A stretch of 28,038 nucleotides of DNA from a virus, in the IMG/VR virus record IMGVR_UViG_3300042197_001115, positions 1 through 28,038 of that record; one strand, given 5' to 3'. The translations under genes and the position numbers were made by a program. This document shows positions 1 to 8,673 of this stretch, in pieces. The first letter of the stretch is position 1. Every line of letters starts with the position of its first letter. Below the pieces are notes generated by a model. It worked only from the letters and a program-made list of their open reading frames with translations. It was not told where the DNA came from and did no database searches.

Positions 1-1002
1 TATAATTGCTTTAGTATTTCCTGTTACAAGATTTTCTTTTTCTAAGATGTAATTTTTTACTTCTTGGTAATCGTGTAGGGTAATGAAGTCGCTATCAAGG
101 TTTTGTATTCTATCGCTTACATTTAGCAATACGGGATACTTCTGTTTTAGATACTCTAAACATTTGTTTTCTATGTGCATGTTAATAACTCTGCAACTAA
201 AAACAAAGTTTACTATATTACCAACATCAGCGTGTTTATCACCTTTGGTTTCTATAGAAATGAATCCTACTAATCCATAGTATCCGTATTTGTCCCAGGC
301 AAATACTGAATAACTAGACACATCATTTCTAAGTATGTAAGTATTAGCACTTGATGGTATAACTAATTTACCATTTTTATATTTTGTTTCTTTGCTATAC
401 TGAGTATTATCAAATATAGTTTTAGAATAGTTTAATTGATTAGAACGATTAACTAACTCTTCTATGCGATCTTGAAATGGTATGTTGTCATATCTTTCAA
501 CGATTGCTATGTGTATATCCGAATCTTTTAAAAAGGACACGTTATCAGTATTAGATTTAACTATATGTTTTTGTTCTAAGATTTTATAAAAGTTAGTACG
601 AGATTTGCCTATAGGCAAATCTATGTTATTGATGAACGTAAAAGGATTATTGTAAGTTGTTAAGTTTGGGCAATAGAATGTTGCTTCATTGGTGTTAATA
701 ACATTATCGTCAATGAACACTACATCAGCATCCCTTAATTGACAATTTTCAATAATTTGTTTTACTCTATGGCCTTTAGGTTCTAGATTAATACTAGGAA
801 AGACAAACAGGTCCCATATGCTTGATAGTTTTTTCCTAACAGATTGTAAGTTATTGATAGAGCATATCGAATGGATTATGCCAAGTTTTTCAGACTGTTG
901 TATGAAAGCAACAATATTTGGGTCTAGGGTAGTCTCACCGCCCTCGGTTATACTACCCTTCCAGAGTACGCCGTCAATATCCCAGATGATAAGTTTAACC
1001 AT
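1..1002 (-). CDS. FkbH-like HAD/GNAT protein (3' end outside window)
   Basis: The first 334 residues are visible and the frame is still open at base 1. An N-terminal HAD phosphatase-like domain begins with WDIDGVLWKG (Asp8 and Asp10 at the nucleophile positions) and has a later FIDDN acidic motif. The second half carries the family marks SNQLN, DKYGYYGLVG and SCRV of the GNAT-like domain. In polyketide pathways FkbH proteins load a glyceryl unit from 1,3-bisphosphoglycerate onto an acyl carrier protein, while HAD-GNAT relatives also occur in surface-glycan loci. No carrier protein is visible here, so the substrate is unknown. There is no Shine-Dalgarno site; a perfect TATAAATA lies 5 bases before the ATG, which predicts a leaderless late mRNA. 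Family fairly sure, role unknown. Confidence 0.8.
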   Translation of the reverse strand, partial: MVKLIIWDIDGVLWKGSITEGGETTLDPNIVAFIQQSEKLGIIHSICSINNLQSVRKKLSSIWDLFVFPSINLEPKGHRVKQIIENCQLRDADVVFIDDNVINTNEATFYCPNLTTYNNPFTFINNIDLPIGKSRTNFYKILEQKHIVKSNTDNVSFLKDSDIHIAIVERYDNIPFQDRIEELVNRSNQLNYSKTIFDNTQYSKETKYKNGKLVIPSSANTYILRNDVSSYSVFAWDKYGYYGLVGFISIETKGDKHADVGNIVNFVFSCRVINMHIENKCLEYLKQKYPVLLNVSDRIQNLDSDFITLHDYQEVKNYILEKENLVTGNTKAII

Positions 1003-1007
1003 GTAAA

Positions 1008-1015
1008 TATTTATA
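1008..1015 (-). promoter_or_regulatory. T4-type late promoter motif of the FkbH-like gene
   Basis: On the minus strand this reads TATAAATA, the T4 late consensus. Five bases separate it from the ATG. With the T4 spacing (last A of the motif at -6) transcription would start on the A of the start codon. Confidence 0.6.
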
Positions 1016-1023
1016 TATGAGTA

Positions 1024-1052
1024 TTGACATAAAAAGTAAAATGAATTAGAAT
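1024..1052 (+). promoter_or_regulatory. Sigma70 promoter of the tRNA array
   Basis: TTGACA (1024-1029), 17-base spacer, TAGAAT (1047-1052). The predicted start is at about 1059, one base before tRNA-Gln, so it should drive the first tRNA and the two genes after it. Confidence 0.85.
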
Positions 1053-1059
1053 AAGATAT

Positions 1060-1134
1060 TGGGGATTCGCCAAGCGGTAAGGCATCGGATTTTGATTCCG
1101 ACATTCCCAGGTTCGATCCCTGGATCCCCAGCCA
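1060..1134 (+). tRNA. tRNA-Gln (TTG)
   Basis: Full cloverleaf with acceptor TGGGGAT/ATCCCCA, anticodon loop TTTTGAT giving TTG, T-loop TTCGATC and encoded CCA. The U1-A72 start is typical of bacterial tRNA-Gln. Confidence 0.96.
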
Positions 1135-1149
1135 TACAAGGAGATTATC

Positions 1150-1326
1150 ATGAAAACAGTAACATTTGAAAGTGTATATAACAAAGAAAAATTTACTTGC
1201 AACGGTAAATCCTTGCAGGATGTTAGAGTTATTGATGGTATAGAATATCTACGTGTCTTTAAGTTCGGGACGCAACGTGAGGTATTGGTTCGTAAAGATA
1301 CCCTAAAACGGGTGTCTAAAAAATAA
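1150..1326 (+). CDS. Small basic hypothetical protein (58 aa)
   Basis: A 58-residue protein beginning MKTVTFESVYNKEKF and ending in a Lys/Arg-rich tail (LKRVSKK). A good ribosome site (AAGGAGAT) lies 5 bases before the ATG, so the start is secure. It sits 15 bases after tRNA-Gln and 29 bases before the HNH gene, in the same transcript from the promoter at 1024. I recognise no family, signal peptide or membrane segment. The predicted content is mostly beta strand with a positively charged end, which would fit nucleic-acid or small-protein binding, but this is only a guess. Confidence 0.8.
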   Translation: MKTVTFESVYNKEKFTCNGKSLQDVRVIDGIEYLRVFKFGTQREVLVRKDTLKRVSKK

Positions 1327-1355
1327 GATGTAAATATATAAAGATAGGAGTTATC

Positions 1356-1919
1356 ATGGCTGTTTTAGCATTGGATATCTCAGGAATTCCGCGGCAGTGG
1401 ATCTCCTTTGATGACGCTATTGTATATCATGCAAAGGAACTTGTTGCATGGAGCCTGGGTGATGTAGTAGCACGGTATCGTGGTGGAATTCAAAACGACG
1501 GTACTGAAAGTTATTTAGAAACACCTAGCATCATTGCGATTAGAGGTCATGGGTTTGACCCTGCACGCCACAATAGAGTTAGTCTAACTAATCGAACATT
1601 GTTCGGGCGAGACAGACATGTATGTGCATATTGTGGAGGACATTTCCCAAACTATCATCATCTAAGTCGTGACCATATATTGCCTAAGAGCAGGGGAGGT
1701 ACTGATGTTTGGATGAACGTAGTGACCGCTTGCAAAGAATGTAACGGTAAAAAAGGTAGTAAGACATTGAAAGAAGCACGTATGGAGTTATTATATGTAC
1801 CATATGTGCCGAATCATTTTGAAAATCTGATCTTGCAGAACCGCAACATCCTTGCGGATCAAATGGAGTACTTGTTATCAGGTGTTCCAAAACATAGCAG
1901 AATTTTAAAAATGTCTTGA
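1356..1919 (+). CDS. HNH endonuclease
   Basis: A 187-residue protein with a complete zinc-type HNH core: CxxC (Cys90, Cys93), SRDHILPKSRGG with Asp106-His107, Asn121 and a second CxxC pair (Cys126, Cys129) followed by Asn130. The HNH core cuts DNA using one metal ion held by the His/Asn residues, while the four Cys bind a structural zinc. A ribosome site (AGGAG) precedes the ATG by 7 bases. The N-terminal 80 residues match nothing I know. HNH proteins in phage tRNA arrays are usually free-standing homing nucleases; it could also act in packaging or host-DNA attack, but no terminase gene is next to it. Its TGA stop lies inside the -35 box of the next promoter. Confidence 0.9.
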   Translation: MAVLALDISGIPRQWISFDDAIVYHAKELVAWSLGDVVARYRGGIQNDGTESYLETPSIIAIRGHGFDPARHNRVSLTNRTLFGRDRHVCAYCGGHFPNYHHLSRDHILPKSRGGTDVWMNVVTACKECNGKKGSKTLKEARMELLYVPYVPNHFENLILQNRNILADQMEYLLSGVPKHSRILKMS

Positions 1920-1944
1920 CAAAAAAACATTTGTCATGTATACT
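1916..1944 (+). promoter_or_regulatory. Sigma70 promoter before tRNA-Asn
   Basis: TTGACA (1916-1921), 17-base spacer, TATACT (1939-1944). The -35 box contains the TGA stop of the HNH gene. Confidence 0.85.
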
Positions 1945-1968
1945 ATAGATTAAATAGTTAAGTTCGAT

Positions 1969-2044
<76 letters not shown>

Positions 2045-2055
2045 TTTTAGAATAT

Positions 2056-2131
2056 GCTGGTTTAGCTCAGTTGGTAGAGCATCTGCCTTGTAAGCAGGAG
2101 GTCGTCAGTTCGAATCCGACAACCAGCACCA
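2056..2131 (+). tRNA. tRNA-Thr (TGT)
   Basis: Acceptor GCTGGTT/AACCAGC, anticodon loop CTTGTAA, T-loop TTCGAAT, encoded CCA. It is followed directly by the EF-hand gene. Confidence 0.96.
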
Positions 2132-2156
2132 TATGACACACAGGAGTATTGAGTTT

Positions 2157-2393
2157 ATGAAGAAGTTTATTGTATTGGGATTGTTTGCCATTTCTGCTAA
2201 TGCAATGGCCGTTGATAGGGTAACACAGTTTGATACGGACTTGGATGGTAAAGTTTCATACAAGGAACTTACTTCGGTATGTGACGTTTCAAAGTCACTG
2301 TTTGACCGAGCAGATAAGAATAACGATGGGTATTTGAATAACGCTGAATTGCGTACAGCAAAGTCCTATCTACTGTCAACTTGCAGTAAGTAA
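2157..2393 (+). CDS. Secreted two-EF-hand calcium-binding protein
   Basis: A 78-residue protein. Residues 1-18 form a signal peptide: KK, a hydrophobic stretch, then an ANA or AMA cleavage site. Two full 12-residue EF-hand loops follow, Asp26-Glu37 (DTDLDGKVSYKE) and Asp53-Glu64 (DKNNDGYLNNAE), each with D/N at loop positions 1, 3 and 5, Gly at 6 and Glu at 12. Cys42 and Cys76 could form a disulfide outside the cytoplasm. The ATG at 2157 is chosen because it starts the signal peptide, although AGGAGT is 9-10 bases upstream; an earlier in-frame ATG at 2133 would put eight residues before the signal and has no ribosome site. The gene is squeezed between tRNA-Thr and tRNA-Arg. Calcium binding is predicted; its role in infection is unknown. 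Confidence 0.88.
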   Translation: MKKFIVLGLFAISANAMAVDRVTQFDTDLDGKVSYKELTSVCDVSKSLFDRADKNNDGYLNNAELRTAKSYLLSTCSK

Positions 2394-2400
2394 AAATTAT

Positions 2401-2477
2401 CTGCCCGTAGCTCAGTTGGATAGAGCAATGGCCTTCTAAGCCATCGGTCGGACGTTCGAATCGTCTCGGGCAGGCCA
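2401..2477 (+). tRNA. tRNA-Arg (TCT)
   Basis: Acceptor CTGCCCG/CGGGCAG, anticodon loop CTTCTAA, T-loop TTCGAAT, discriminator G, encoded CCA. It reads AGA, a codon common in AT-rich genes. Confidence 0.95.
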
Positions 2478-2516
2478 AATTAGTAGCGAAAGTTTTATTG
2501 ATTAAATAAGTTTATT

Positions 2517-2594
2517 CGGGGTGTAGCGCAGTCTGGTTAGCGCATCTGCTTTGGGAGCAGAGGGTCGTGAGTTCGAATCCCACCACCCCGACCA
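2517..2594 (+). tRNA. tRNA-Pro (TGG)
   Basis: Acceptor CGGGGTG/CACCCCG, anticodon loop TTTGGGA, T-loop TTCGAAT, encoded CCA. The C1-G72 pair is typical of bacterial tRNA-Pro. Confidence 0.96.
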
Positions 2595-2599
2595 TTTTA

Positions 2600-2675
2600 G
2601 GAAGTTTAGCTCAGTTGGTAGAGCGGCGCCCTTACAAGGCGTAGGTCAGAGGTTCGACCCCTCTAACTTCCACCA
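2600..2675 (+). tRNA. tRNA-Val (TAC)
   Basis: Acceptor GGAAGTT/AACTTCC, anticodon loop CTTACAA, T-loop TTCGACC, encoded CCA. Confidence 0.95.
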
Positions 2676-2693
2676 ATTCTTTGATTGTAATAA

Positions 2694-2703
2694 TTCTTTA
2701 ACA
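2694..2703 (+). promoter_or_regulatory. boxA-like sequence
   Basis: TTCTTTAACA resembles the boxA antitermination signal of bacterial rRNA leaders (TGCTCTTTAACA). It lies just after tRNA-Val. In an AT-rich spacer this could be chance. Confidence 0.3.
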
Positions 2704-2721
2704 CAATTTTCTCAGAGGTGT

Positions 2722-2744
2722 AATAAATACACATATTATAAATA
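2722..2744 (+). promoter_or_regulatory. Two T4-type late promoter motifs
   Basis: AATAAATA (2722-2729) and a perfect TATAAATA (2737-2744) lie before the GNAT-like gene at 2759. The first would leave a leader of about 24 bases that keeps the AAAGGTAG ribosome site; the second would cut into that site. Confidence 0.5.
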
Positions 2745-2758
2745 TCAAAGGTAGCGAC

Positions 2759-3193
2759 ATGTTAAACATCATCAACAATATCAACGATCCGCTACTAAGT
2801 TACATCAAAGATGATCCAGTGAGACCCGAAATTCCTGTAGAGTTTCGGGTTTCTAATTTTAGATTTGTTGGCGCCTTAGTAGAGGACACACCAGAAGCAA
2901 TGGTCTGCGTAAGTCTGCATGACTTCATCCCTGAATCTGTAGAAGATTTATCTAAGGAATCAGAAAATCCTGATACTGCTATATTCTATACCATATGGAG
3001 TTATAAAGCAGGTGCGGCAAGAGATTTACTGTTTTCAACAGTTAAAGAAATACAACGCATGTTTCCTAACATTACACGTTTTGTAACACTCAGTCCTAAA
3101 ACTGAAATGGCTAAACGTTTTCATTTACGCAATGGAGCGTCGGTGTTAAAAGAAAATGCTAATACGGTCAACTACGAATATAAAGTAGTTTGA
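2759..3193 (+). CDS. GNAT-like phage protein
   Basis: A 144-residue protein. The C-terminal half (YTIWSYKAGAARDLLFS, then FVTLSPKTEMAKRFHLRNGA and TVNYEY) looks like a small GNAT fold found in many phages: a helix after a G/A-rich turn where acetyl-CoA would sit, then the SPKTEMAKRFHLRNGA segment resembling the last helix and strand of acetyltransferases. The usual R/QxxGxG/A loop is only partly kept (AGAARD), so activity is uncertain. AAAGGTAG precedes the ATG. Late-type motifs upstream suggest late or two-phase expression. The TGA stop lies within the -35 box of the next promoter. The substrate is unknown. Confidence 0.75.
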   Translation: MLNIINNINDPLLSYIKDDPVRPEIPVEFRVSNFRFVGALVEDTPEAMVCVSLHDFIPESVEDLSKESENPDTAIFYTIWSYKAGAARDLLFSTVKEIQRMFPNITRFVTLSPKTEMAKRFHLRNGASVLKENANTVNYEYKVV

Positions 3194-3218
3194 CAATAAA
3201 TTACAAATAGCGTATACT
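3190..3218 (+). promoter_or_regulatory. Sigma70 promoter before tRNA-Trp
   Basis: TTGACA (3190-3195), 17-base spacer, TATACT (3213-3218). The stop codon of the GNAT-like gene is inside the -35 box. Confidence 0.85.
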
Positions 3219-3235
3219 ACACGCATTAGTTCAGT

Positions 3236-3310
3236 ATCTCGGTGGTGTCAACGGCAGCATGACGGTCTCCAAAACCGCTGGTGGGGGTTCGAATCCCTCC
3301 CGGGATGCCA
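3236..3310 (+). tRNA. tRNA-Trp (CCA)
   Basis: Acceptor ATCTCGG/CCGGGAT, D-stem GTGT/GCAT, anticodon loop CTCCAAA, T-loop TTCGAAT, discriminator G, encoded CCA. Its first base pair is A-T, unlike E. coli tRNA-Trp. Confidence 0.93.
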
Positions 3311-3344
3311 AAAATCTGATGAAAAACAAGCACTTACGAGAGGC

Positions 3345-3373
3345 TTGACAAATAATCAGGTTTAGTGTAGAAT
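3345..3373 (+). promoter_or_regulatory. Sigma70 promoter before tRNA-Leu
   Basis: AGGC-TTGACA (3345-3350), 17-base spacer beginning AATAATCAGG, TAGAAT (3368-3373). It shares its upstream and spacer sequence with the early promoters at 4781, 15794 and 19279. Confidence 0.85.
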
Positions 3374-3400
3374 ACGCATATACGCTGAGAAATCAGCAAC

Positions 3401-3414
3401 GCTCTTTAAAAATT
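3401..3414 (+). promoter_or_regulatory. boxA-like antitermination sequence in the tRNA-Leu leader
   Basis: GCTCTTTAAAAATT closely matches the rRNA-leader boxA (GCTCTTTAACAATT). It sits between a strong promoter and a stable-RNA gene, the same place as in rRNA operons. If real, NusB-S10 binding here would let polymerase read through the structured tRNA array. Confidence 0.5.
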
Positions 3415-3428
3415 GTTGTAAATTTTTT

Positions 3429-3516
3429 GCCCGGATGGTGAAATAGGTAGACACAAGGGACTTAAAATCCCTCGCCCTAAAACGGCATGCCGGTTCGATT
3501 CCGGCTCCGGGCACCA
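3429..3516 (+). tRNA. tRNA-Leu (TAA)
   Basis: Acceptor GCCCGGA/TCCGGGC, anticodon loop CTTAAAA, class II variable arm, T-loop TTCGATT, encoded CCA. Confidence 0.96.
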
Positions 3517-3633
3517 TATTGAAGCACATTGTAAGCCATGGGCTTGATCATGCCTGAGTAACTATGTACATAATTGCGGTAATTCTAGACAATCCCGCAT
3601 GAGCATAGCAAATAGTGCAGTGTGTTTCAATAT
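3516..3633 (+). ncRNA. Structured spacer RNA, element A
   Basis: Starts on the last base of the tRNA-Leu CCA. Its ends (3516-3531 and 3618-3633) pair along 16 bases with two G-U pairs and no mismatch: ATATTGAAGCACATTG against CAGTGTGTTTCAATAT. Inside is a hairpin whose loop holds CTTGATCA. The terminal stem keeps the CATT/AGTG segment shared with elements B (4993) and C (6583). No reading frame of note. Function unknown; it could be a small RNA freed by tRNA end processing. Confidence 0.6.
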
Positions 3634-3646
3634 GGTTTCTATAACA

Positions 3647-3742
3647 AAGGGGGAGTGGCGGATATGTCTCAATGTCATATTCATCGCCTATTGTAAAACT
3701 CTTAAACGACAGCATATGCCTCACTCGCAGGTTGTGCCCCTT
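3647..3742 (+). ncRNA. Self-complementary spacer RNA between tRNA-Leu and tRNA-Met
   Basis: Nested pairings: AAGGGG (3647-3652) with CCCCTT (3737-3742), GAGTG (3653-3657) with CACTC (3722-3726), and ATATG (3662-3666) with CATAT (3713-3717). It lacks the CATT/AGTG mark of elements A to C. No coding frame is seen. It is either a processing stem between tRNAs or a separate small RNA. Confidence 0.4.
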
Positions 3743-3750
3743 ATAAATTT

Positions 3751-3827
3751 GCCTCTGTAGCTCAATTGGTTAGAGCAGTGGACTCATAATCCATTGGTTA
3801 CAGGTTCGAGTCCTGTCGGAGGCACCA
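3751..3827 (+). tRNA. tRNA with CAT anticodon (elongator Met or Ile2)
   Basis: Acceptor GCCTCTG/CGGAGGC, anticodon loop CTCATAA, T-loop TTCGAGT, encoded CCA. G1-C72 rules out an initiator. Whether it is Met or the lysidine-modified Ile reading AUA cannot be settled by eye. Confidence 0.93.
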
Positions 3828-3832
3828 ATATT

Positions 3833-3922
3833 GGAAGTGTGGCAGAGTGGTTGAATGCACTAGTCTTGAAAACTAGCGATTCCGCAAGGGGTCCGTGAGT
3901 TCGAATCTCACCGCTTCCACCA
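3833..3922 (+). tRNA. tRNA-Ser (TGA)
   Basis: Acceptor GGAAGTG/CGCTTCC, anticodon loop CTTGAAA, class II variable arm, T-loop TTCGAAT, encoded CCA. Confidence 0.95.
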
Positions 3923-3929
3923 GTGTACA

Positions 3930-4021
3930 GGAGAGGTGCCCGAGAGGCCTAAGGGAGCGGTTTGCTAAACCGTCGATTCACGAAAGTGGGTCCGTGGGTT
4001 CGAATCCCACTCTCTCCACCA
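3930..4021 (+). tRNA. tRNA-Ser (GCT)
   Basis: Acceptor GGAGAGG/TCTCTCC, anticodon loop TTGCTAA, long variable arm, T-loop TTCGAAT, encoded CCA. Confidence 0.95.
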
Positions 4022-4032
4022 AAGGATTTATC

Positions 4033-4395
4033 ATGTACTTTGAAATTGATGAACAATACATTTGTGACGTAATGGTTAAGCAGGAATACGATTTTATCAA
4101 AGATCGTAATAACCCTACACATGATGACCTAATCAAAATTCTAAAAGGTTGGGACAAGAGTTATAGCATCAGTAACAAAGACCATGATGAATTCACAAAA
4201 TTGCGCAATCAATTAGAAGAACAAGGTTATATTCAAACAAGGCGTAACTGTTGGAATGGTGATACTGTATTGAAGCCATTCTATTTGAACGGTTGGCGAT
4301 TCAAAAAGAATCATAGATTTCCTTGCGCGGCAGCACTAAAGAATAGTATCACTTGCGCTAAGAAATATAAATGGAAAAGTATTAGTAGTTTATAA
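4033..4395 (+). CDS. Hypothetical protein (120 aa)
   Basis: A 120-residue protein beginning MYFEIDEQYICDVMV, with a Lys-rich C-terminus (KYKWKSISSL). AAAGGAT lies 7 bases before the ATG, which fixes the start; a longer reading of the frame would run back into tRNA-Ser. Acidic in the first half and basic in the second, with a Trp/Asn segment (RRNCWNGDTV), and no signal peptide or membrane helix. It sits between tRNA-Ser 12 bases before and tRNA-Cys 2 bases after. I do not recognise the family. Confidence 0.82.
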   Translation: MYFEIDEQYICDVMVKQEYDFIKDRNNPTHDDLIKILKGWDKSYSISNKDHDEFTKLRNQLEEQGYIQTRRNCWNGDTVLKPFYLNGWRFKKNHRFPCAAALKNSITCAKKYKWKSISSL

Positions 4396-4396
4396 T

Positions 4397-4474
4397 GCAT
4401 CGGTACCAGAGCGGTCTAATGGCGCGGATTGCAAATCCGTTGATTCGCAGGTTCGAATCCTGCCCGTTGCTCCA
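4397..4474 (+). tRNA. tRNA-Cys (GCA)
   Basis: Anticodon loop TTGCAAA, T-loop TTCGAAT, discriminator T as in tRNA-Cys, encoded CCA. The acceptor GCATCGG/CCGTTGC has a T-T mismatch at pair 4. Confidence 0.9.
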
Positions 4475-4481
4475 ATAAATA
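4475..4481 (+). promoter_or_regulatory. Late promoter motif before the 68-aa gene
   Basis: ATAAATA, preceded by A, ends 5 bases before the ATG at 4487. It starts immediately after the CCA of tRNA-Cys. The predicted start is on the A of ATG. Confidence 0.5.
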
Positions 4482-4486
4482 CATCT

Positions 4487-4693
4487 ATGCAAGTAGATAC
4501 AGTATCACAAGTCTTAGGTTGGGTTAACAACTTAAGAGTAACAGAAACTAGAAACACCTACAATTATGACAAGGGTAATAGTGTTACTATGGTATCAACA
4601 CGTACAGATGCATTTACCATAACAGGATATAATCCTGACGGAACCCCAGTCTCTAATGTTGAGAAGGGTTCCAAAGTAGACGTTAAAGTTTAA
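4487..4693 (+). CDS. Small hypothetical protein (68 aa), probably leaderless
   Basis: A 68-residue protein beginning MQVDTVSQVLGWVNN, rich in Thr, Val and Asn, probably beta-strand, and ending GSKVDVKV. No ribosome site exists, because the 12 bases between tRNA-Cys and the ATG hold only the late motif, so translation would start on the first base of the mRNA. It ends 2 bases before tRNA-Ile. I recognise no family. The frame is short and could be chance, but its late-motif placement matches five other genes in the window, which raises confidence. Confidence 0.62.
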   Translation: MQVDTVSQVLGWVNNLRVTETRNTYNYDKGNSVTMVSTRTDAFTITGYNPDGTPVSNVEKGSKVDVKV

Positions 4694-4695
4694 CT

Positions 4696-4772
4696 GCCTG
4701 TTTAGCTCAGATGGTTAGAGCACCGTCTTGATAAGGCGGGGGTCCTTGGTTCGATCCCAAGAACAGGCACCA
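4696..4772 (+). tRNA. tRNA-Ile (GAT)
   Basis: Acceptor GCCTGTT/AACAGGC, anticodon loop TTGATAA, T-loop TTCGATC, encoded CCA. Confidence 0.95.
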
Positions 4773-4780
4773 AATAAGGC

Positions 4781-4809
4781 TTGACAAATAATTCAAGTTA
4801 GTGTATTAT
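4781..4809 (+). promoter_or_regulatory. Sigma70 promoter before tRNA-Lys
   Basis: AGGC-TTGACA (4781-4786), 17-base spacer, TATTAT (4804-4809). Same promoter group as 3345 and 15794. Confidence 0.85.
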
Positions 4810-4829
4810 ACATATATTGATTAGGAGAT

Positions 4830-4919
4830 ATGACATGAAACGAGGTAAACTCTAGTGTCATTTTAGTTCCAATGTACGGACTAAGATGGCACGTTAAATC
4901 GACTTAGTACAAACATTGG
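4830..4919 (+). promoter_or_regulatory. Structured leader of tRNA-Lys with a six-codon frame
   Basis: About 100 bases lie between the promoter start and tRNA-Lys. A ribosome site (AGGAGATA, 4823-4830) is followed by a tiny frame, MKRGKL (4835-4855). ATGACA (4830-4835) pairs with TGTCAT (4856-4861) around this frame. A second stem, CCAATGT (4869-4875) with ACATTGG (4913-4919), encloses ACTAAG (4880-4885) with CTTAGT (4903-4908) and takes in the first two bases of the tRNA. The layout resembles a translated attenuation leader, but no terminator hairpin with a T-run is seen. Confidence 0.4.
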
Positions 4920-4993
4920 GACGTTAGCTCAGTTGGTAGAGCAGTAGACTTTTAATCTATTGGTCGTGGGTTCGAACCCCGCACGTCCTACCA
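4918..4993 (+). tRNA. tRNA-Lys (TTT)
   Basis: Acceptor GGGACGT/ACGTCCT with a G1-U72 pair, anticodon loop CTTTTAA, T-loop TTCGAAC, encoded CCA. Confidence 0.95.
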
Positions 4994-5065
4994 TATTATA
5001 GCACATTGCCGAACAGTCAAATTGCCTACTCAAGCGGGAAGCAGATGAGTAGTGTGCTATAATAT
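4993..5065 (+). ncRNA. Structured spacer RNA, element B
   Basis: Fills exactly the gap between the tRNA-Lys CCA and the first base of the next tRNA. Ends 4993-5005 and 5053-5065 are a perfect 13 bp inverted repeat (ATATTATAGCACA / TGTGCTATAATAT), extended by a G-U and an A-U pair into the CATT/AGTG segment shared with elements A and C. An inner hairpin pairs CTACTCA with TGAGTAG. The right arm also contains TGCTATAAT, an extended -10 box, so a promoter role for the next tRNA is possible. Confidence 0.6.
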
Positions 5066-5140
5066 GGTAGAGTAGCATAACGGTAGTGCAACACCTTCAT
5101 ACGGTGCGCTGTGAGAGTTCGATTCCCTCCTCTACTACCA
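5066..5140 (+). tRNA. tRNA with CAT anticodon (Met or Ile2)
   Basis: Acceptor GGTAGAG/CTCTACT with G1-U72, D-stem GCAT/GTGC, anticodon loop TTCATAC, T-loop TTCGATT with one T-stem mismatch, encoded CCA. It lacks initiator marks. The loop differs from the usual CTCATAA, so its identity as Met or Ile2 is open. Confidence 0.85.
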
Positions 5141-5149
5141 AAGTTTTTT

Positions 5150-5225
5150 GCTCGGTTCGTCTATCGGTTTAGGACGCTAGCCTTTCACGCTGGAAAGACG
5201 GGTTCGATTCCCGTACCGAGTACCA
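5150..5225 (+). tRNA. tRNA-Glu (TTC)
   Basis: Acceptor GCTCGGT/ACCGAGT, anticodon loop CTTTCAC, T-loop TTCGATT, encoded CCA. Confidence 0.94.
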
Positions 5226-5231
5226 ATATAA

Positions 5232-5318
5232 GGGTGTTGCCCCCTACGGCGGACTGTAAATCCGTTCCTAAAGGTAGGGAAGTCAAGGCACGTGGAGCGT
5301 TACCATCAGCACCCACCA
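5232..5318 (+). tRNA. Aberrant tRNA-Tyr-like gene (GTA)
   Basis: Acceptor GGGTGTT/AGCACCC with discriminator A and encoded CCA, and an anticodon arm with loop CTGTAAA (GTA, Tyr). But only about 10 bases lie between acceptor and anticodon stem, too few for a D-arm, and the T-loop position reads AGCGTTA, not TTCRANY. CCCTAC before the anticodon stem can pair with GTAGGG after it, suggesting a different fold. It may be a rearranged or dead tRNA, or a tRNA-like RNA. Confidence 0.5.
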
Positions 5319-5323
5319 AAAGG

Positions 5324-5331
5324 CATAAATA
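5324..5331 (+). promoter_or_regulatory. Late promoter motif before the 28-aa membrane protein
   Basis: CATAAATA, with a predicted start at about 5337. This leaves a leader that keeps the AGGAGG ribosome site of the gene at 5363. Confidence 0.45.
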
Positions 5332-5362
5332 TATCTCTTTTGAACACACAGGAGGACACAGA

Positions 5363-5449
5363 ATGGAATTTATAGGAATGAATGTTCTAGCAATTTTGAT
5401 TTTATCGTTATCGATTATCGTTAGCGACATTGTTTCAATGCTAGAGTAA
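5363..5449 (+). CDS. Single-span membrane microprotein (28 aa)
   Basis: A 28-residue frame too short for routine calling. It has an unusually strong ribosome site (AGGAGG) 7 bases before the ATG, and almost the whole product is one hydrophobic helix (NVLAILILSLSIIVSDIV) ending MLE. A late-type motif lies upstream and tRNA-Asp starts 6 bases downstream. Such microproteins can act as lysis or membrane-effect factors, but nothing here shows which, and no lysis genes are nearby. The strong ribosome site and membrane character make it likely to be translated. Confidence 0.65.
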   Translation: MEFIGMNVLAILILSLSIIVSDIVSMLE

Positions 5450-5455
5450 GAATAA

Positions 5456-5533
5456 GGTTCGTTAGTATAGTTGGCCTAATATGCCTGCCTGTCACGCAGG
5501 AGATCACGGGTTCGAATCCCGTACGGACCGCCA
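5456..5533 (+). tRNA. tRNA-Asp (GTC)
   Basis: Acceptor GGTTCGT/ACGGACC, anticodon loop CTGTCAC, T-loop TTCGAAT, discriminator G, encoded CCA. Confidence 0.95.
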
Positions 5534-5610
5534 AGAATAAAAACTATTACTTATCGCTTGTTTCTCCACTAAATATTAGTGTCTGAAAAATGACATTAAG
5601 GAGAAATACT

Positions 5611-5775
5611 ATGGATATGGACGTTATAGTTCCTGTAGTGATAGCGATAGTAGTAGCAGGCTTTTTCTTTTGGAAAAAGAAGAGCAAAAGTTCCGATAGT
5701 GATGCATCAGCAGAAGGTGGTTTAGCCGGGGGCGGCAAACCCTCTGATCATGGTGGTAATCAGCACTTGAAGTAA
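5611..5775 (+). CDS. Small N-terminal membrane-anchored protein (54 aa)
   Basis: A 54-residue protein. A short acidic start (MDMD) is followed by one membrane helix, VIVPVVIAIVVAGFFFW (about residues 5-21), a positive cluster KKKSK and a low-complexity Ser/Asp/Gly tail ending HLK. By the positive-inside rule the tail is cytoplasmic. AAGGAG lies 9 bases before the ATG at 5611; an upstream ATG at 5590 precedes that site and is rejected. A near-palindrome (CACTAA/TTAGTG) at 5567-5581 lies just upstream. No family recognised. Confidence 0.75.
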   Translation: MDMDVIVPVVIAIVVAGFFFWKKKSKSSDSDASAEGGLAGGGKPSDHGGNQHLK

Positions 5776-5789
5776 CAGACCCCGGTTTA

Positions 5790-5940
5790 CACTTTTACGT
5801 AATATAAAGTGGGCAATTGTCGTCGCCATACTGACACGGTGTACACTGAACTACCGCAAGGCCCGCTATATGGGCGACTTGAGAAACTAGTGGGTAAGGT
5901 TCGCAGCCTGTTCCATAAGAATAAATGCGTGGACAGGGTA
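5790..5940 (+). ncRNA. Structured spacer of unknown function
   Basis: The 214 bases before the oxygenase gene hold no credible frame but several stems: CACTTT/AAAGTG (5790-5795, 5806-5811); CGGT/ACCG around 5837-5856; GCCC/GGGC flanked by CAAG/CTTG around 5857-5881, which competes with a longer pairing of 5822-5830 and 5869-5878; and CCTGTTCC/GGACAGG (5907-5914, 5931-5937). The mutually exclusive pairings could mean a switch. It may be a small RNA or a long leader of the gene at 5990. I recognise no known RNA class. Confidence 0.4.
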
Positions 5941-5989
5941 ACAACTCAGTTTTGGGCTTATTGGGGAAGTAGCAAAACACTTTAAAATT

Positions 5990-6529
5990 ATGAATATAAA
6001 AGACTATATTTTCGTTACTAAGATTTTTGATTCGCAGGAATGTGATGAGATTGTAAGAAAGGCCGACCAGTATAATTGGCGCCAGCATAAATGGAATGAT
6101 GCTAATACTAAATCAAAAGGCATGGAAGAAATTGATGACATACTAGTATGTAACATTGATCCTATACTTGAATCTAAAATAGCACCTAAATTATTTAATG
6201 TGTTCGGAAAATATAGTTTACTATTTGGACCTAAGAATGTTCCAATTCAATTGATTAATCAATGGGACACAATTAGAATAAACAAATATACAAAAGATGT
6301 TGGTATGAGAAGTCATATTGATCATGGTATTGACAGAGAGCATCCTGTACTGACTATCATTGCATTGTTGAATGACGAATTTACCGGCGGAAGCACTAAA
6401 ATATTAGGAGAGGCTGTTACTTTATCAAAGGGTAGTGCTGTTATATTTCCTAGCAATTTTATGTTTCCACATGAAATAGAACCAGTAATTTCGGGCATAC
6501 GCTATTCGATAACTACTTGGGCTTATTAA
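5990..6529 (+). CDS. 2OG-Fe(II) oxygenase, prolyl-4-hydroxylase type
   Basis: A 179-residue protein with the whole iron and 2-oxoglutarate site of the P4H-like family: HxD at His109/Asp111, distal His161 in FPHEIEPV, and Arg171 in GIRYSI to hold 2OG. The spacing and GGST turn (residues 133-136) fit the double-stranded beta-helix. Such enzymes hydroxylate proline or other residues in proteins, using O2 and 2OG in the cytoplasm. No ribosome site is seen before the ATG. The structured spacer lies directly upstream and may affect initiation. The substrate is unknown. It is one of four 2OG-oxygenase folds in the window. Confidence 0.88.
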   Translation: MNIKDYIFVTKIFDSQECDEIVRKADQYNWRQHKWNDANTKSKGMEEIDDILVCNIDPILESKIAPKLFNVFGKYSLLFGPKNVPIQLINQWDTIRINKYTKDVGMRSHIDHGIDREHPVLTIIALLNDEFTGGSTKILGEAVTLSKGSAVIFPSNFMFPHEIEPVISGIRYSITTWAY

Positions 6530-6547
6530 TTTTGGGTCAACAAGTAA

Positions 6548-6576
6548 TTGACAATCAATACTAATTCAGTTATACT
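6548..6576 (+). promoter_or_regulatory. Sigma70 promoter of element C
   Basis: TTGACA (6548-6553), 17-base spacer, TATACT (6571-6576). Predicted start 6583, the first base of the inverted repeat of element C. Confidence 0.85.
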
Positions 6577-6582
6577 AACATC

Positions 6583-6669
6583 ATTATATTCAAGTACATT
6601 TTGATGCCTATAAGGTTGTAGACTTGATCACCTACAATACGGTGTGCGATAAGTGTACTTCAATATAAT
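6583..6669 (+). ncRNA. Structured RNA, element C, with its own promoter
   Basis: Terminal arms 6583-6598 and 6654-6669 pair over 16 bases with one C-C mismatch (ATTATATTCAAGTACA / TGTACTTCAATATAAT). They continue into the CATT/AGTG segment shared with A and B. An inner hairpin TTGTAG/CTACAA carries CTTGATCA in its loop, as in element A. The promoter start coincides with the first base of the left arm. No coding frame. This is the best evidence that the family is expressed as RNA. Confidence 0.65.
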
Positions 6670-6970
6670 AGTTTTGGTAGTTATGCAGGACGTGAGAATC
6701 TGCAAACTACCCAGAGTTGAGATTGGGACGAGAACTGACAAAATCATTATGGGACTTTTTATCCTATAACGAACTTAAGGCAATACGTCTTGAAAACGTA
6801 TCGTGCTTATGTGATCTAGTCAAATGTTTTAATTAACCTTCTTGTATTTTGCTGACTAGGAATATATAAGCCTCTGTGCTTTGTTGATTGCAATTTGAAA
6901 TTTGCATTTTGTCACGTTGGTTACTTACTTTCTTAACTCTGTCTTATTTTTTAACATTAAAGGTAATATC
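6670..6970 (+). other. Non-coding stretch with hairpins before the coiled-coil gene
   Basis: No convincing gene. It holds a two-part hairpin (GGTAGTT 6676-6682 with AACTACC 6705-6711, GCAG 6685-6688 with CTGC 6700-6703) and a second one (ATACGT 6783-6788 with ACGTAT 6796-6801, loop CTTGAAA). The last 100 bases are T-rich, and AAAGGTAAT serves as ribosome site for the gene at 6971. It could be the long leader of that gene from the promoter at 6548, or further RNA parts. Confidence 0.45.
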
Positions 6971-7543
6971 ATGGAAATCACACTTCGTAAAGCAAATGCA
7001 CTTCAAAACAATGTTAATGACCTACTGAAGGGTATTAGTGTTGTTGATAGTGTAACCCTCAATGAGTTTGAGGATGCTGAGGTAATTCTCAGCAACAAGG
7101 CGCGTGAAGCACGTGTGTCATTCGACCGCCAGGTCGCATTGACTAAAGCACTGTACGATATTCGTACAGAAGTGGCTAACGCTAACCACTTCTCACGCAT
7201 CACAACCATGTTGACTCAGGTTGCGTTGCTTGACAAGTTGATTGGTTTCAATCAGAAAATGGCCGAACGTCAGGTTCGTGTTAGCCCTGAAGTAGTACAG
7301 GGTAAGGTTCAAAAGTTGCGTACAGTAAAGGAAGACAGCCGTATGTCACTGTATGATCGTTTCAATGAATTCACTTCAGGTGTTACAACCGATGCTGAAG
7401 TGAAGGAGTTTAAGGATAGTGTTTCTGCGCTTAAGCGTGAGAAGCAAGCACTTCAGGATCAAATCTTGGAAGCGAATGTAAGCACTAAGGTAAATCTTAG
7501 TGAGGTTACTGCAAACGTTTTGCGTAGCGAAGGTTTGCTATAA
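6971..7543 (+). CDS. Coiled-coil hypothetical protein (190 aa)
   Basis: A 190-residue, almost fully helical protein beginning MEITLRKANALQNNVND, with heptad-like stretches near residues 30-60 and 140-175 (DSVSALKREKQALQDQILEAN), so probably a coiled-coil oligomer. AAAGGTAAT lies before the ATG at 6971; a longer frame starting at 6902 lacks a ribosome site. Codon use looks more balanced and GC-richer than in the AT-rich oxygenase upstream. It has no signal peptide and I recognise no family. Its 3' end carries a perfect late motif for the initiator tRNA. Confidence 0.85.
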   Translation: MEITLRKANALQNNVNDLLKGISVVDSVTLNEFEDAEVILSNKAREARVSFDRQVALTKALYDIRTEVANANHFSRITTMLTQVALLDKLIGFNQKMAERQVRVSPEVVQGKVQKLRTVKEDSRMSLYDRFNEFTSGVTTDAEVKEFKDSVSALKREKQALQDQILEANVSTKVNLSEVTANVLRSEGLL

Positions 7544-7546
7544 ATA
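7539..7546 (+). promoter_or_regulatory. Perfect T4-type late motif in front of the initiator tRNA
   Basis: TATAAATA overlaps the stop codon of the coiled-coil gene. With T4 spacing the transcript starts at 7552, exactly the first base of tRNA-fMet. The tRNA could thus be made with a mature 5' end late in infection. Confidence 0.55.
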
Positions 7547-7551
7547 TATGG

Positions 7552-7627
7552 CGCAGAGTAGAGAAGGTGGCATCTCGTCAGGCTCATAACCTGAAGGTCG
7601 GCGGTTCGAGTCCGTCCTCTGCAACCA
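7552..7627 (+). tRNA. Initiator tRNA-fMet (CAT)
   Basis: Acceptor CGCAGAG/CTCTGCA leaves C1 opposite A72 unpaired, the hallmark recognised by methionyl-tRNA formyltransferase. The D-stem GAGA/TCTC has the A11-U24 pair of bacterial initiators. The anticodon stem is TCAGG/CCTGA, so the usual three G-C pairs are here A-U, G-C, G-C. Loop CTCATAA, discriminator A, encoded CCA. Confidence 0.92.
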
Positions 7628-7631
7628 ATAT

Positions 7632-7709
7632 GCGGGTAGACAGGACAAGGGGCGTCCAGCAGCCTTCCAAGCTGAAGATCGCGGAGTTCGACTCTCCCTA
7701 CCCGCTCCA
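7632..7709 (+). tRNA. tRNA-Gly (TCC)
   Basis: Acceptor GCGGGTA/TACCCGC, anticodon loop CTTCCAA, T-loop TTCGACT, discriminator T, encoded CCA. Confidence 0.93.
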
Positions 7710-7754
7710 AAAAATTTAATGCATGTTGTCAAACAGTAAATACATATACTCAAT

Positions 7755-7830
7755 GGGGGTGTAGCTCAGTTGGGAGAGCGGCGGCTTTGCAAGCCGTAGG
7801 TCGCAGGTTCGATCCCTGTCACCTCCACCA
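7755..7830 (+). tRNA. tRNA-Ala (TGC)
   Basis: Acceptor GGGGGTG/CACCTCC with the G3-U70 identity pair of alanine tRNAs, anticodon loop TTTGCAA, T-loop TTCGATC, encoded CCA. Confidence 0.96.
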
Positions 7831-7854
7831 TTAACTTAAGGAGTCTACGACAAC

Positions 7855-7986
7855 ATGGCAAAGAGTTCAGGTAGTAAAATTAATTCAGTTGTAAAAAGAA
7901 CAAAGCAAGGCGGCAAAGTAAAAACAAGTAGCCTTAATAAAACTGAAAAGAAAAATTTTAAAAAATATCGAGGACAAGGTAGATGA
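7855..7986 (+). CDS. Small highly basic protein (43 aa)
   Basis: A 43-residue protein (MAKSSGSKINSVVKRTKQ...KKYRGQGR) with about a third Lys/Arg and no hydrophobic core, so probably disordered and nucleic-acid or ribosome binding. AAGGAG lies 12-13 bases before the ATG. Its TGA stop overlaps the ATG of the next gene (ATGA), so the two are translationally coupled. No family assigned; small basic proteins of this kind are common beside phage tRNA genes. Confidence 0.72.
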   Translation: MAKSSGSKINSVVKRTKQGGKVKTSSLNKTEKKNFKKYRGQGR

Positions 7987-8180
7987 GTGGTAAAGGTAGT
8001 AAACCTAGACCATATAGCGTAGACCAAAAGACCTTTGATAGTAATTGGGACGCTATCTTTGGTAAGAAAAATAAAGAAGAGCCTAAGCAAGAACAAAGCG
8101 GGTATAATTCAGGGGTAGAATGTTTGCTTGCCAAGCAAAATGTCGTCGGTTCGAATCCGACTACCCGCTCCAAATCATAA
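7983..8180 (+). CDS. Small conserved-looking phage protein running through a tRNA gene (65 aa)
   Basis: The first 31 residues (MSGKGSKPRPYSVDQKTFDS and on to WDAIFGKK) match my memory of a small protein seen in many phages, which normally ends soon after FGKK. Here the frame goes on without a stop through all of tRNA-Gly (8098-8172) and ends at 8180. About 26 C-terminal residues are therefore encoded by tRNA bases, including the T-arm read as VGSNPTT. It overlaps the previous gene by ATGA. Translation through the tRNA would compete with tRNA folding and cleavage by RNase P, so the full-length product may be rare. Confidence 0.7.
   Translation: MSGKGSKPRPYSVDQKTFDSNWDAIFGKKNKEEPKQEQSGYNSGVECLLAKQNVVGSNPTTRSKS
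8098..8172 (+). tRNA. tRNA-Gly (GCC), embedded in a coding frame
   Basis: Acceptor GCGGGTA/TACCCGC, anticodon loop TTGCCAA, T-loop TTCGAAT, discriminator T, encoded CCA. It lies wholly inside the 3' part of the gene at 7983, on the same strand. Confidence 0.94.
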
Positions 8181-8183
8181 ATA
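8177..8183 (+). promoter_or_regulatory. Late promoter motif of the GDPD-like gene
   Basis: ATAAATA ends 4 bases before the ATG at 8188, one base closer than in the other five leaderless cases. Confidence 0.5.
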
Positions 8184-8187
8184 CTAG

Positions 8188-8673
8188 ATGCTATTCATAT
8201 CGTATCGTGGTATTTTTGACGGACAAAATTTCGAAGATGAAAATACACCAGACCAAATAGGAAGATCCTTTAATGCAGGATTTTCCTGTATGGTCGATGT
8301 TTGGCGTGTAGACGATAAGATATATTTAGGCAGTGAGCAGCCGTTGGTTGAAGTTACTCCTAGATATTTACAAGGCAATCGTTTTTGGCTTAATGCTAGA
8401 AACAATGATATGTATACATGGTTGCAAGCACAACCCATTAAGTTATATCCTAATTACTTCACAGTACCCAACCCAACACCCAACTATGTAACTACAAGTA
8501 GTGGGCATGATTGGGTGTTTGGTAATGTTCCTACAAACAACAATAGCATTGTTGTATTACCTGAGATACCTGACAGAGGTTTATTCAGTACAGTAAAGTT
8601 GCGCAACTACGGTATTTGTAGTTGTTATCTCACATTCAGTAAACGCTGGCGCAACGAAGGCGTTTGGTATTAA
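8188..8673 (+). CDS. Decayed GDPD-like (TIM-barrel phosphodiesterase) protein
   Basis: A 161-residue protein with the layout of short glycerophosphodiester phosphodiesterase-like proteins: a start like HRG..G...ENT, then a DVW strand, an LGHD-like turn and an HAKN-like strand. But the catalytic residues are changed: Tyr6-Arg-Gly in place of His-Arg-Gly, MVDVW in place of an EIDVW type, LGSE in place of LGHD, and WLNARN in place of an HAKN type; Glu18 of ENTP is kept. It is likely an inactive, binding or structural relative. There is no ribosome site; a late motif is 4 bases before the ATG. Its stop overlaps the stop of the GNAT gene on the other strand. Confidence 0.65.
   Translation: MLFISYRGIFDGQNFEDENTPDQIGRSFNAGFSCMVDVWRVDDKIYLGSEQPLVEVTPRYLQGNRFWLNARNNDMYTWLQAQPIKLYPNYFTVPNPTPNYVTTSSGHDWVFGNVPTNNNSIVVLPEIPDRGLFSTVKLRNYGICSCYLTFSKRWRNEGVWY

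Follow-up and report, generated by a model that had tools for sequence, protein, structure and literature searches.

Candidate small RNAs closed by a helix on tRNA CCA ends in tRNA and GOLLD islands of uncultured phages

Three hairpin elements in a phage tRNA array

The stretch of DNA analyzed here (the window) is the IMG/VR virus record IMGVR_UViG_3300042197_001115, 28,038 base pairs (bp) long, in which ARAGORN places 21 transfer RNA (tRNA) genes between positions 1060 and 8172. An initial annotation had described three hairpin-forming elements in this array, A, B and C, as one family of structured RNAs with a shared terminal stem. We found the three hairpins where that annotation had placed them, each folding below its dinucleotide shuffles (fold z-scores are given in the feature list), and the longest two pairs in an unbiased inverted-repeat search of positions 1000-8400 were those of B (arms of 18 nucleotides (nt), 100%) and A (19 nt, 89%). 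We likewise confirmed the described ACA/TGT core, the CATT/AGTG segment containing a T.G wobble, and the loop CTTGATCA that A and C have in common. The closing helix, however, is about 18 bp long rather than 13-16, and its outer end in A and B lies at the discriminator base, not at the last base of the CCA end. The arms of these two helices (ACCATATT.../...AATATGGT) include the whole ACCA of the upstream tRNA, discriminator base and CCA alike. The features are as follows.

3429..3516, + strand: tRNA-Leu(taa), found by ARAGORN and Rfam; its 3' ACCA (3513-3516) forms the outermost part of the A closing helix.
3513..3636, + strand: element A, a family A RNA (fold z -4.7; nhmmer E 4e-21 with a 62-sequence alignment that includes A; covariation).
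3513-3530/3619-3636: closing helix of A, extended by GTA/TGC and followed by a short hairpin and then by a second arm with an apical loop.
3531..3536, + strand: GTAAGC, invariant in family A (62-sequence alignment) and also required by the search pattern.
3545..3550, + strand: palindromic TGATCA within the loop of the first hairpin of A; family-wide, not above chance.
3584..3589, + strand: palindromic TCTAGA within the apical loop of A, a predicted homodimer kissing loop.
3608..3618, + strand: GCAAATAGTGC, a conserved family A segment that formed part of the search pattern.
4918..4993, + strand: tRNA-Lys(ttt), found by ARAGORN; its ACCA (4990-4993) opens the B closing helix.
4988..5070, + strand: element B (fold z -6.2; inverted repeat; family relatives).
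4990-5007/5051-5068: closing helix of B, which two further pairs lengthen to 4988-5007/5051-5070.
Within B: the interior GCCGAACAGTCAAAT...GATGAGT, common to at least 30 other sequences.
5066..5140, + strand: tRNA-Met(cat), whose first bases, GGT, belong to the B 3' arm.
6548..6576, + strand: promoter-like site ahead of C, TTGACA-17-TATACT, with 11/12 consensus bases.
6583..6669, + strand: element C (helix 6583-6600/6652-6669, in which position 9 is a C.C mismatch; fold z -3.1).
6625-6630, + strand: TGATCA in the hairpin loop of C.

Two claims about the borders of these elements were borne out in part. B had been said to stop exactly at the next tRNA, and tRNA-Met does follow without a spacer, but the 3' arm of B enters the first three bases of this tRNA. 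C had been placed at the +1 position of a strong promoter; the promoter-like site at 6548-6576 makes a +1 near 6583 plausible.

The closing helix on tRNA CCA ends and behind GOLLD

We surveyed the closing helix in 198 IMG/VR phage loci, collected via neighboring proteins and one DNA pattern, which hold 2004 distinct tRNA CCA ends. Each end was given a sequence-independent score for an 18-nt arm starting at the discriminator base, with a threshold that no shuffled control passed; 133 of the 2004 ends passed it, compared with 0 of the controls. In the 126 curated, tRNA-adjacent elements the three CCA positions were paired in 91, 98 and 100%, helix positions 2-8, 10-16 and 18 in 91-100%, and position 1, the discriminator base, in 82%, while only 66% were paired at the last acceptor base and 28-44% deeper in the acceptor stem. 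Position 9 was mismatched in 55% of these elements, mostly as A.C, and position 17 was U.G in 69%. Their consensus arms were ACCATATN-N-AAACACATT / AGTGTGTTT-N-NATATGGT, and in 40 of the 126 the end of the element was exactly the first bases of the next tRNA. Several pair types occurred at most helix positions, and in an RNAalifold analysis of the relatives of A (family A, described below) 16 of 19 closing-helix pairs carried double changes that preserve pairing, strongly supporting the earlier proposal that the outer stem changes in a compensatory manner. Among 140 distinct matches, 52 lay behind tRNA-Lys(ttt) and 29 behind tRNA-Glu(ttc), a preference that is partly an artefact of the pattern-based harvest, as tRNA-Lys and tRNA-Leu dominate in the loci found through proteins.

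The helix also recurs behind a different kind of RNA. The neighboring 189-amino-acid protein led to a related contig, L003, whose tRNA order is nearly the same as that of the window. Hairpins stand at matching places in L003 (after tRNA-Leu(taa), after tRNA-Lys and upstream of the gene for the 189-amino-acid protein), with an extra one after tRNA-Leu(tag); their interiors differ from those in the window, and their arms differ yet are still paired. At the place of C, L003 carries GOLLD, a cage-forming RNA (RF02032, 213.6 bits, E 6e-60), followed immediately by a C-like hairpin. The window has no GOLLD there, and C directly follows the promoter-like site, its helix intact although neither a tRNA nor GOLLD precedes it. 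Of 34 records reached via neighboring proteins and not selected for the elements, 20 hold GOLLD, and all 20 of these loci have a hairpin of this kind no more than 10 nt from where the GOLLD match ends, in most cases with a CACATT/AGTGTG core; one of the shuffled controls reached the threshold in this test. Other loci show the same GOLLD neighbors but were partly chosen for them. GOLLD is also carried by a cultured phage of 469 kb, Sinorhizobium phage Phosso (PV764938.1; L336 15968-16436, 186.6 bits), which might serve as a laboratory system; no element of the described kind was detected in its GOLLD region.

The tRNA arrays of the cultured phages XacN1 and Erythrobacter phage vB_EliS-L02, with about 30 tRNAs each, contain no such hairpins and provide a natural negative control. 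Taken together with the Phosso region and one scaffold of a metagenome-assembled genome, these arrays yielded a single weak score (11.2).

Interiors, the apical loop of family A and neighboring features

The interior of A was present in at least 120 IMG/VR stretches. The matches listed comprise 91 distinct sequences, two of them there by chance, leaving at least 89 members, one of which is a GTGGCCAC member. When distant members were folded singly, the structures agreed on the closing helix, on a short hairpin and on a second arm, whose apical loop is large. The first helix of this second arm was intact, in a fixed register, in 80% of members, compared with 33% when arms were permuted among members. 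RNAalifold on a MAFFT alignment recovered the closing helix only, because loop lengths vary within the family, and the inner helices were counted by anchored position. Motifs used in the search patterns (GTAAGC, GTAAC and GCANATAGTGC, as well as the B motifs) are invariant by construction. Family A is a structured RNA family whose helices are kept through compensatory changes. Homologs with covarying stems, to which the initial annotation had tied its claim of a real RNA family, therefore exist.

B belongs to a family of at least 31 distinct sequences, whose closing stems are of at least two clearly different kinds, and B-like interiors lie behind tRNA-Leu in locus L006 and behind tRNA-Gln in L167. 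In some phages the B interior sits inside a larger predicted RNA; at about 1800-2010 of L365, for example, a longer stem embeds it in such an RNA, which has no Rfam match. C has one clear relative, which lies behind tRNA-Gly in L083; the mean column identity is 89%, and the stem of this relative is different but compensated. A pattern search for further relatives of C gave none. One interior can be found on differing closing stems and behind differing tRNAs; stem and interior are therefore modular. As the three elements have unrelated interiors, each with relatives of its own, what had been taken for a single family is a shared helix that carries exchangeable interiors. Clustering of the interiors yielded recurrent classes plus many singletons. 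Some interiors end, beside the closing helix, in a hairpin resembling a tRNA T-arm, GGTTCGAATCC (L073 5266, L139 71, L145 5902, L099, L176 and L107).

All 89 family A members listed contain a palindrome of 6-10 nt in the apical loop region, compared with roughly a third of the shuffled regions if the center was left free and 2% at a fixed center. Among these members there are 24 distinct loop centers, and all 24 are self-complementary over the inner six bases, whereas random re-pairing of left and right halves gave 11% self-complementary centers on average (mean 0.11) and 33% at most. The center was picked as the longest palindrome in the loop, which somewhat favors the observed value, but the fixed-center and permutation controls lie far below it. 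Adjacent bases, such as those in the middle of a palindrome, are unable to pair with each other in a single strand, so that the covariation points to base pairing between two copies of the RNA. A loop that changes and yet remains self-complementary suggests an intermolecular kissing loop, and family A RNA, judged by this signature, probably homodimerizes through it. Palindromes in the first hairpin of family A were not above chance, and none were enriched outside family A, so we limit the claim to the apical palindrome. The TGATCA loop common to A and C is also palindromic; given the chance level of first-hairpin palindromes, contact between A and C via these loops is only a possibility.

We also compared the elements with known RNA and DNA features. 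A, B and C had no Rfam match, and Rfam searches at relaxed E-values of the window, L003 and the family A loci returned only tRNA, GOLLD and chance matches (one further Rfam scan covered the best 150 matches only). The GOLLD covariance model (RF02032) had no match in the window, the elements lie outside the GOLLD matches, and nhmmer with family A against all loci gave no link to GOLLD. The three elements gave no tRNA match (RF00005), none has an intrinsic terminator (a GC-rich stem followed by a T run), and the GTTRRRY / RYYYAAC core boxes of integron attC sites are absent from the arms.

Other features of these islands stand beside the elements. A hairpin resembling rrn boxB and a boxA (GCTGAGAAATCAGC AACGCTCTTTAAAAATTG) precede tRNA-Leu and A at 3384-3413 of the window; the pair also occurs in L003, at 4463 and 7655, including a place before GOLLD, and similarly in 16 loci, which suggests that the island transcripts undergo antitermination of the ribosomal RNA (rRNA) type. 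The segment between A and tRNA-Met (3637-3750) has 85% identity in L003 and 81% in L006. Between tRNA-Ile and tRNA-Lys, positions 4774-4917 have 92% identity in L003 and matches in several other loci, and 4800-4917 folds at z -3.9. Positions 5229-5317 probably encode a tRNA-Tyr(gta) that has a long variable arm; neither ARAGORN nor Rfam reported it, and it is conserved in relatives (84% in L003). About 210 nt of intergenic DNA at 5776-5985, conserved at 74-78% in relatives (32 blastn rows, with overlapping loci counted), look like a structured RNA. In the leader of the gene for the 189-amino-acid protein (6673-6973), of which 270 nt have 81% identity in L003, there is a hairpin whose loop resembles the anticodon loop of tRNA-Ser, CTTGAAAA. 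In related islands, permuted (two-piece) phage transfer-messenger RNA lies among the tRNAs (L155 6826-7224, - strand; L139 754-1160, + strand; L368 905-1319, + strand).

Proposed origin of the RNAs and comparison with known systems

We favor, at a probability of roughly 0.55, the reading that A, B and C are undescribed small phage RNAs excised from tRNA or GOLLD precursors by means of the CCA-pairing helix, and that A probably homodimerizes. Sequence comparison establishes the closing helix and its covariation, the pairing of this helix with CCA, the conservation of the interiors and, in family A, a palindromic loop that covaries; these findings would place the three elements in a set of undescribed RNA families in the tRNA and GOLLD islands of uncultured, partly very large phages. 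The RNAs would be transcribed together with tRNAs or GOLLD as parts of precursors and released by tRNA end processing, by a cut of the helix of the ribonuclease III (RNase III) type, or by both, leaving a discrete RNA with a duplex end. As many elements extend from one mature 3' end to the next mature 5' end, tRNA maturation alone would free them, and an RNase III-type cut could free the remainder. The helix would keep the CCA hidden until release, and the interior would be the working part. In family A, homodimers would form through the palindromic kissing loop of 6-10 nt, as in OLE and GOLLD, possibly within larger RNA-only assemblies of the GOLLD island.

Several observations weigh against this reading. 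No cultured phage with the elements was found, either in blastn searches of cultured phages, for which element A and a class III element served as queries, or in the cultured-phage arrays, and a search of the neighbor protein against phages gave nothing useful. As a set, the interiors are no more stable than shuffles (z -0.47, compared with -0.41 for controls), and palindromes are not enriched beyond family A. The searches were pattern-based, so that all counts of relatives are lower bounds. Moreover, the sequences are related, and independent events are therefore fewer than the counts, for which reason distinct pair types and distinct palindromes are the safer measures.

The main rival, which we regard as unlikely, is that the hairpins are merely 3' processing or protection signals for the upstream tRNA or GOLLD, hiding the CCA until the tRNA is matured by a cut specific for double strands and by trimming, with an interior that has no role of its own. 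This would explain the register and constancy of the helix, which begins at the discriminator base, pairs with CCA and follows the 3' ends of tRNAs and GOLLD, and it fits with interiors that vary widely and are not unusually stable. It does not explain why many phages have conserved A and B interiors whose motifs are invariant and whose inner helices covary, why B interiors are also embedded in larger predicted RNAs, or why C keeps its helix with no tRNA or GOLLD ahead of it. We consider it very improbable that the elements are mobile DNA cassettes with terminal inverted repeats, inserting behind RNA genes in the manner of attC sites or of miniature inverted-repeat transposable elements: near-identical closing stems do bear unrelated interiors, and interiors do change sites, as the B-like ones in L006 and L167 have done, but the arms vary by compensation instead of keeping one sequence, as befits a folding RNA, the attC core GTTRRRY is absent and the register on CCA is exact. 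Slightly less probable still is that CCA pairing shields phage tRNAs from host tRNA-cleaving defenses, which phage tRNAs have been proposed to evade (PMC10264068), or makes the elements decoys for tRNA-end enzymes, since the many copies behind tRNA-Lys and tRNA-Glu that would suit such a role partly reflect the harvest, other copies stand behind GOLLD or behind a promoter without a tRNA, and a mature tRNA must have its CCA exposed.

An extension of the small-RNA reading that we put forward tentatively, and hold to be rather doubtful, is that the small RNAs of an island self-assemble, perhaps with GOLLD, into RNA-only particles, the helix tying each RNA to the mature 3' end of its neighbor and the fast-changing palindrome giving family A its specificity; each phage's family A RNA would then recognize its own kind. 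The switching of the family A loop between 24 self-complementary centers makes RNA self-recognition directly testable with transcripts of 125 nt. Furthermore, the helix built on CCA may link tRNA maturation with the maturation of other RNAs. We found no description of these RNAs in the literature, subscription journals being mostly outside reach, and no Rfam family or paper with the layout of the CCA-built closing helix.

Among known systems, phage T4 RNAs C and D are small stable non-tRNA RNAs inside a phage tRNA cluster, and A, B and C can be likened to them by this position alone. The RNase III stems of pre-16S and pre-23S rRNA are likewise long helices that close a precursor RNA, and the islands contain boxB/boxA-like leaders; the helix described here differs in being about 18 bp long, in pairing with the CCA of another RNA and in its recurrent mismatch at position 9, and RNase III-type processing of it would fit in length and pairing only. 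GOLLD and ROOL are phage-encoded non-coding RNAs near tRNA islands that form RNA-only homo-oligomers with kissing loops (PMC12286853). The elements too lie in phage tRNA islands, and directly follow GOLLD, but they measure 65-400 nt rather than roughly 500-800, and their bounding helix pairs with the CCA of the neighboring tRNA. To the RNA-only multimers that phages are known from GOLLD and ROOL to encode beside tRNAs, the new families would add many small, easily synthesized island RNAs. In OLE L9.3 and GOLLD L21a, palindrome switching was taken as evidence for intermolecular loops on the basis of fewer switches (PMC12286853). The symmetric kissing loop of OLE L9.3, in which the palindrome switches yet stays self-complementary, resembles the apical loop of family A; OLE is an unrelated RNA, and family A has 24 different self-complementary loop centers.

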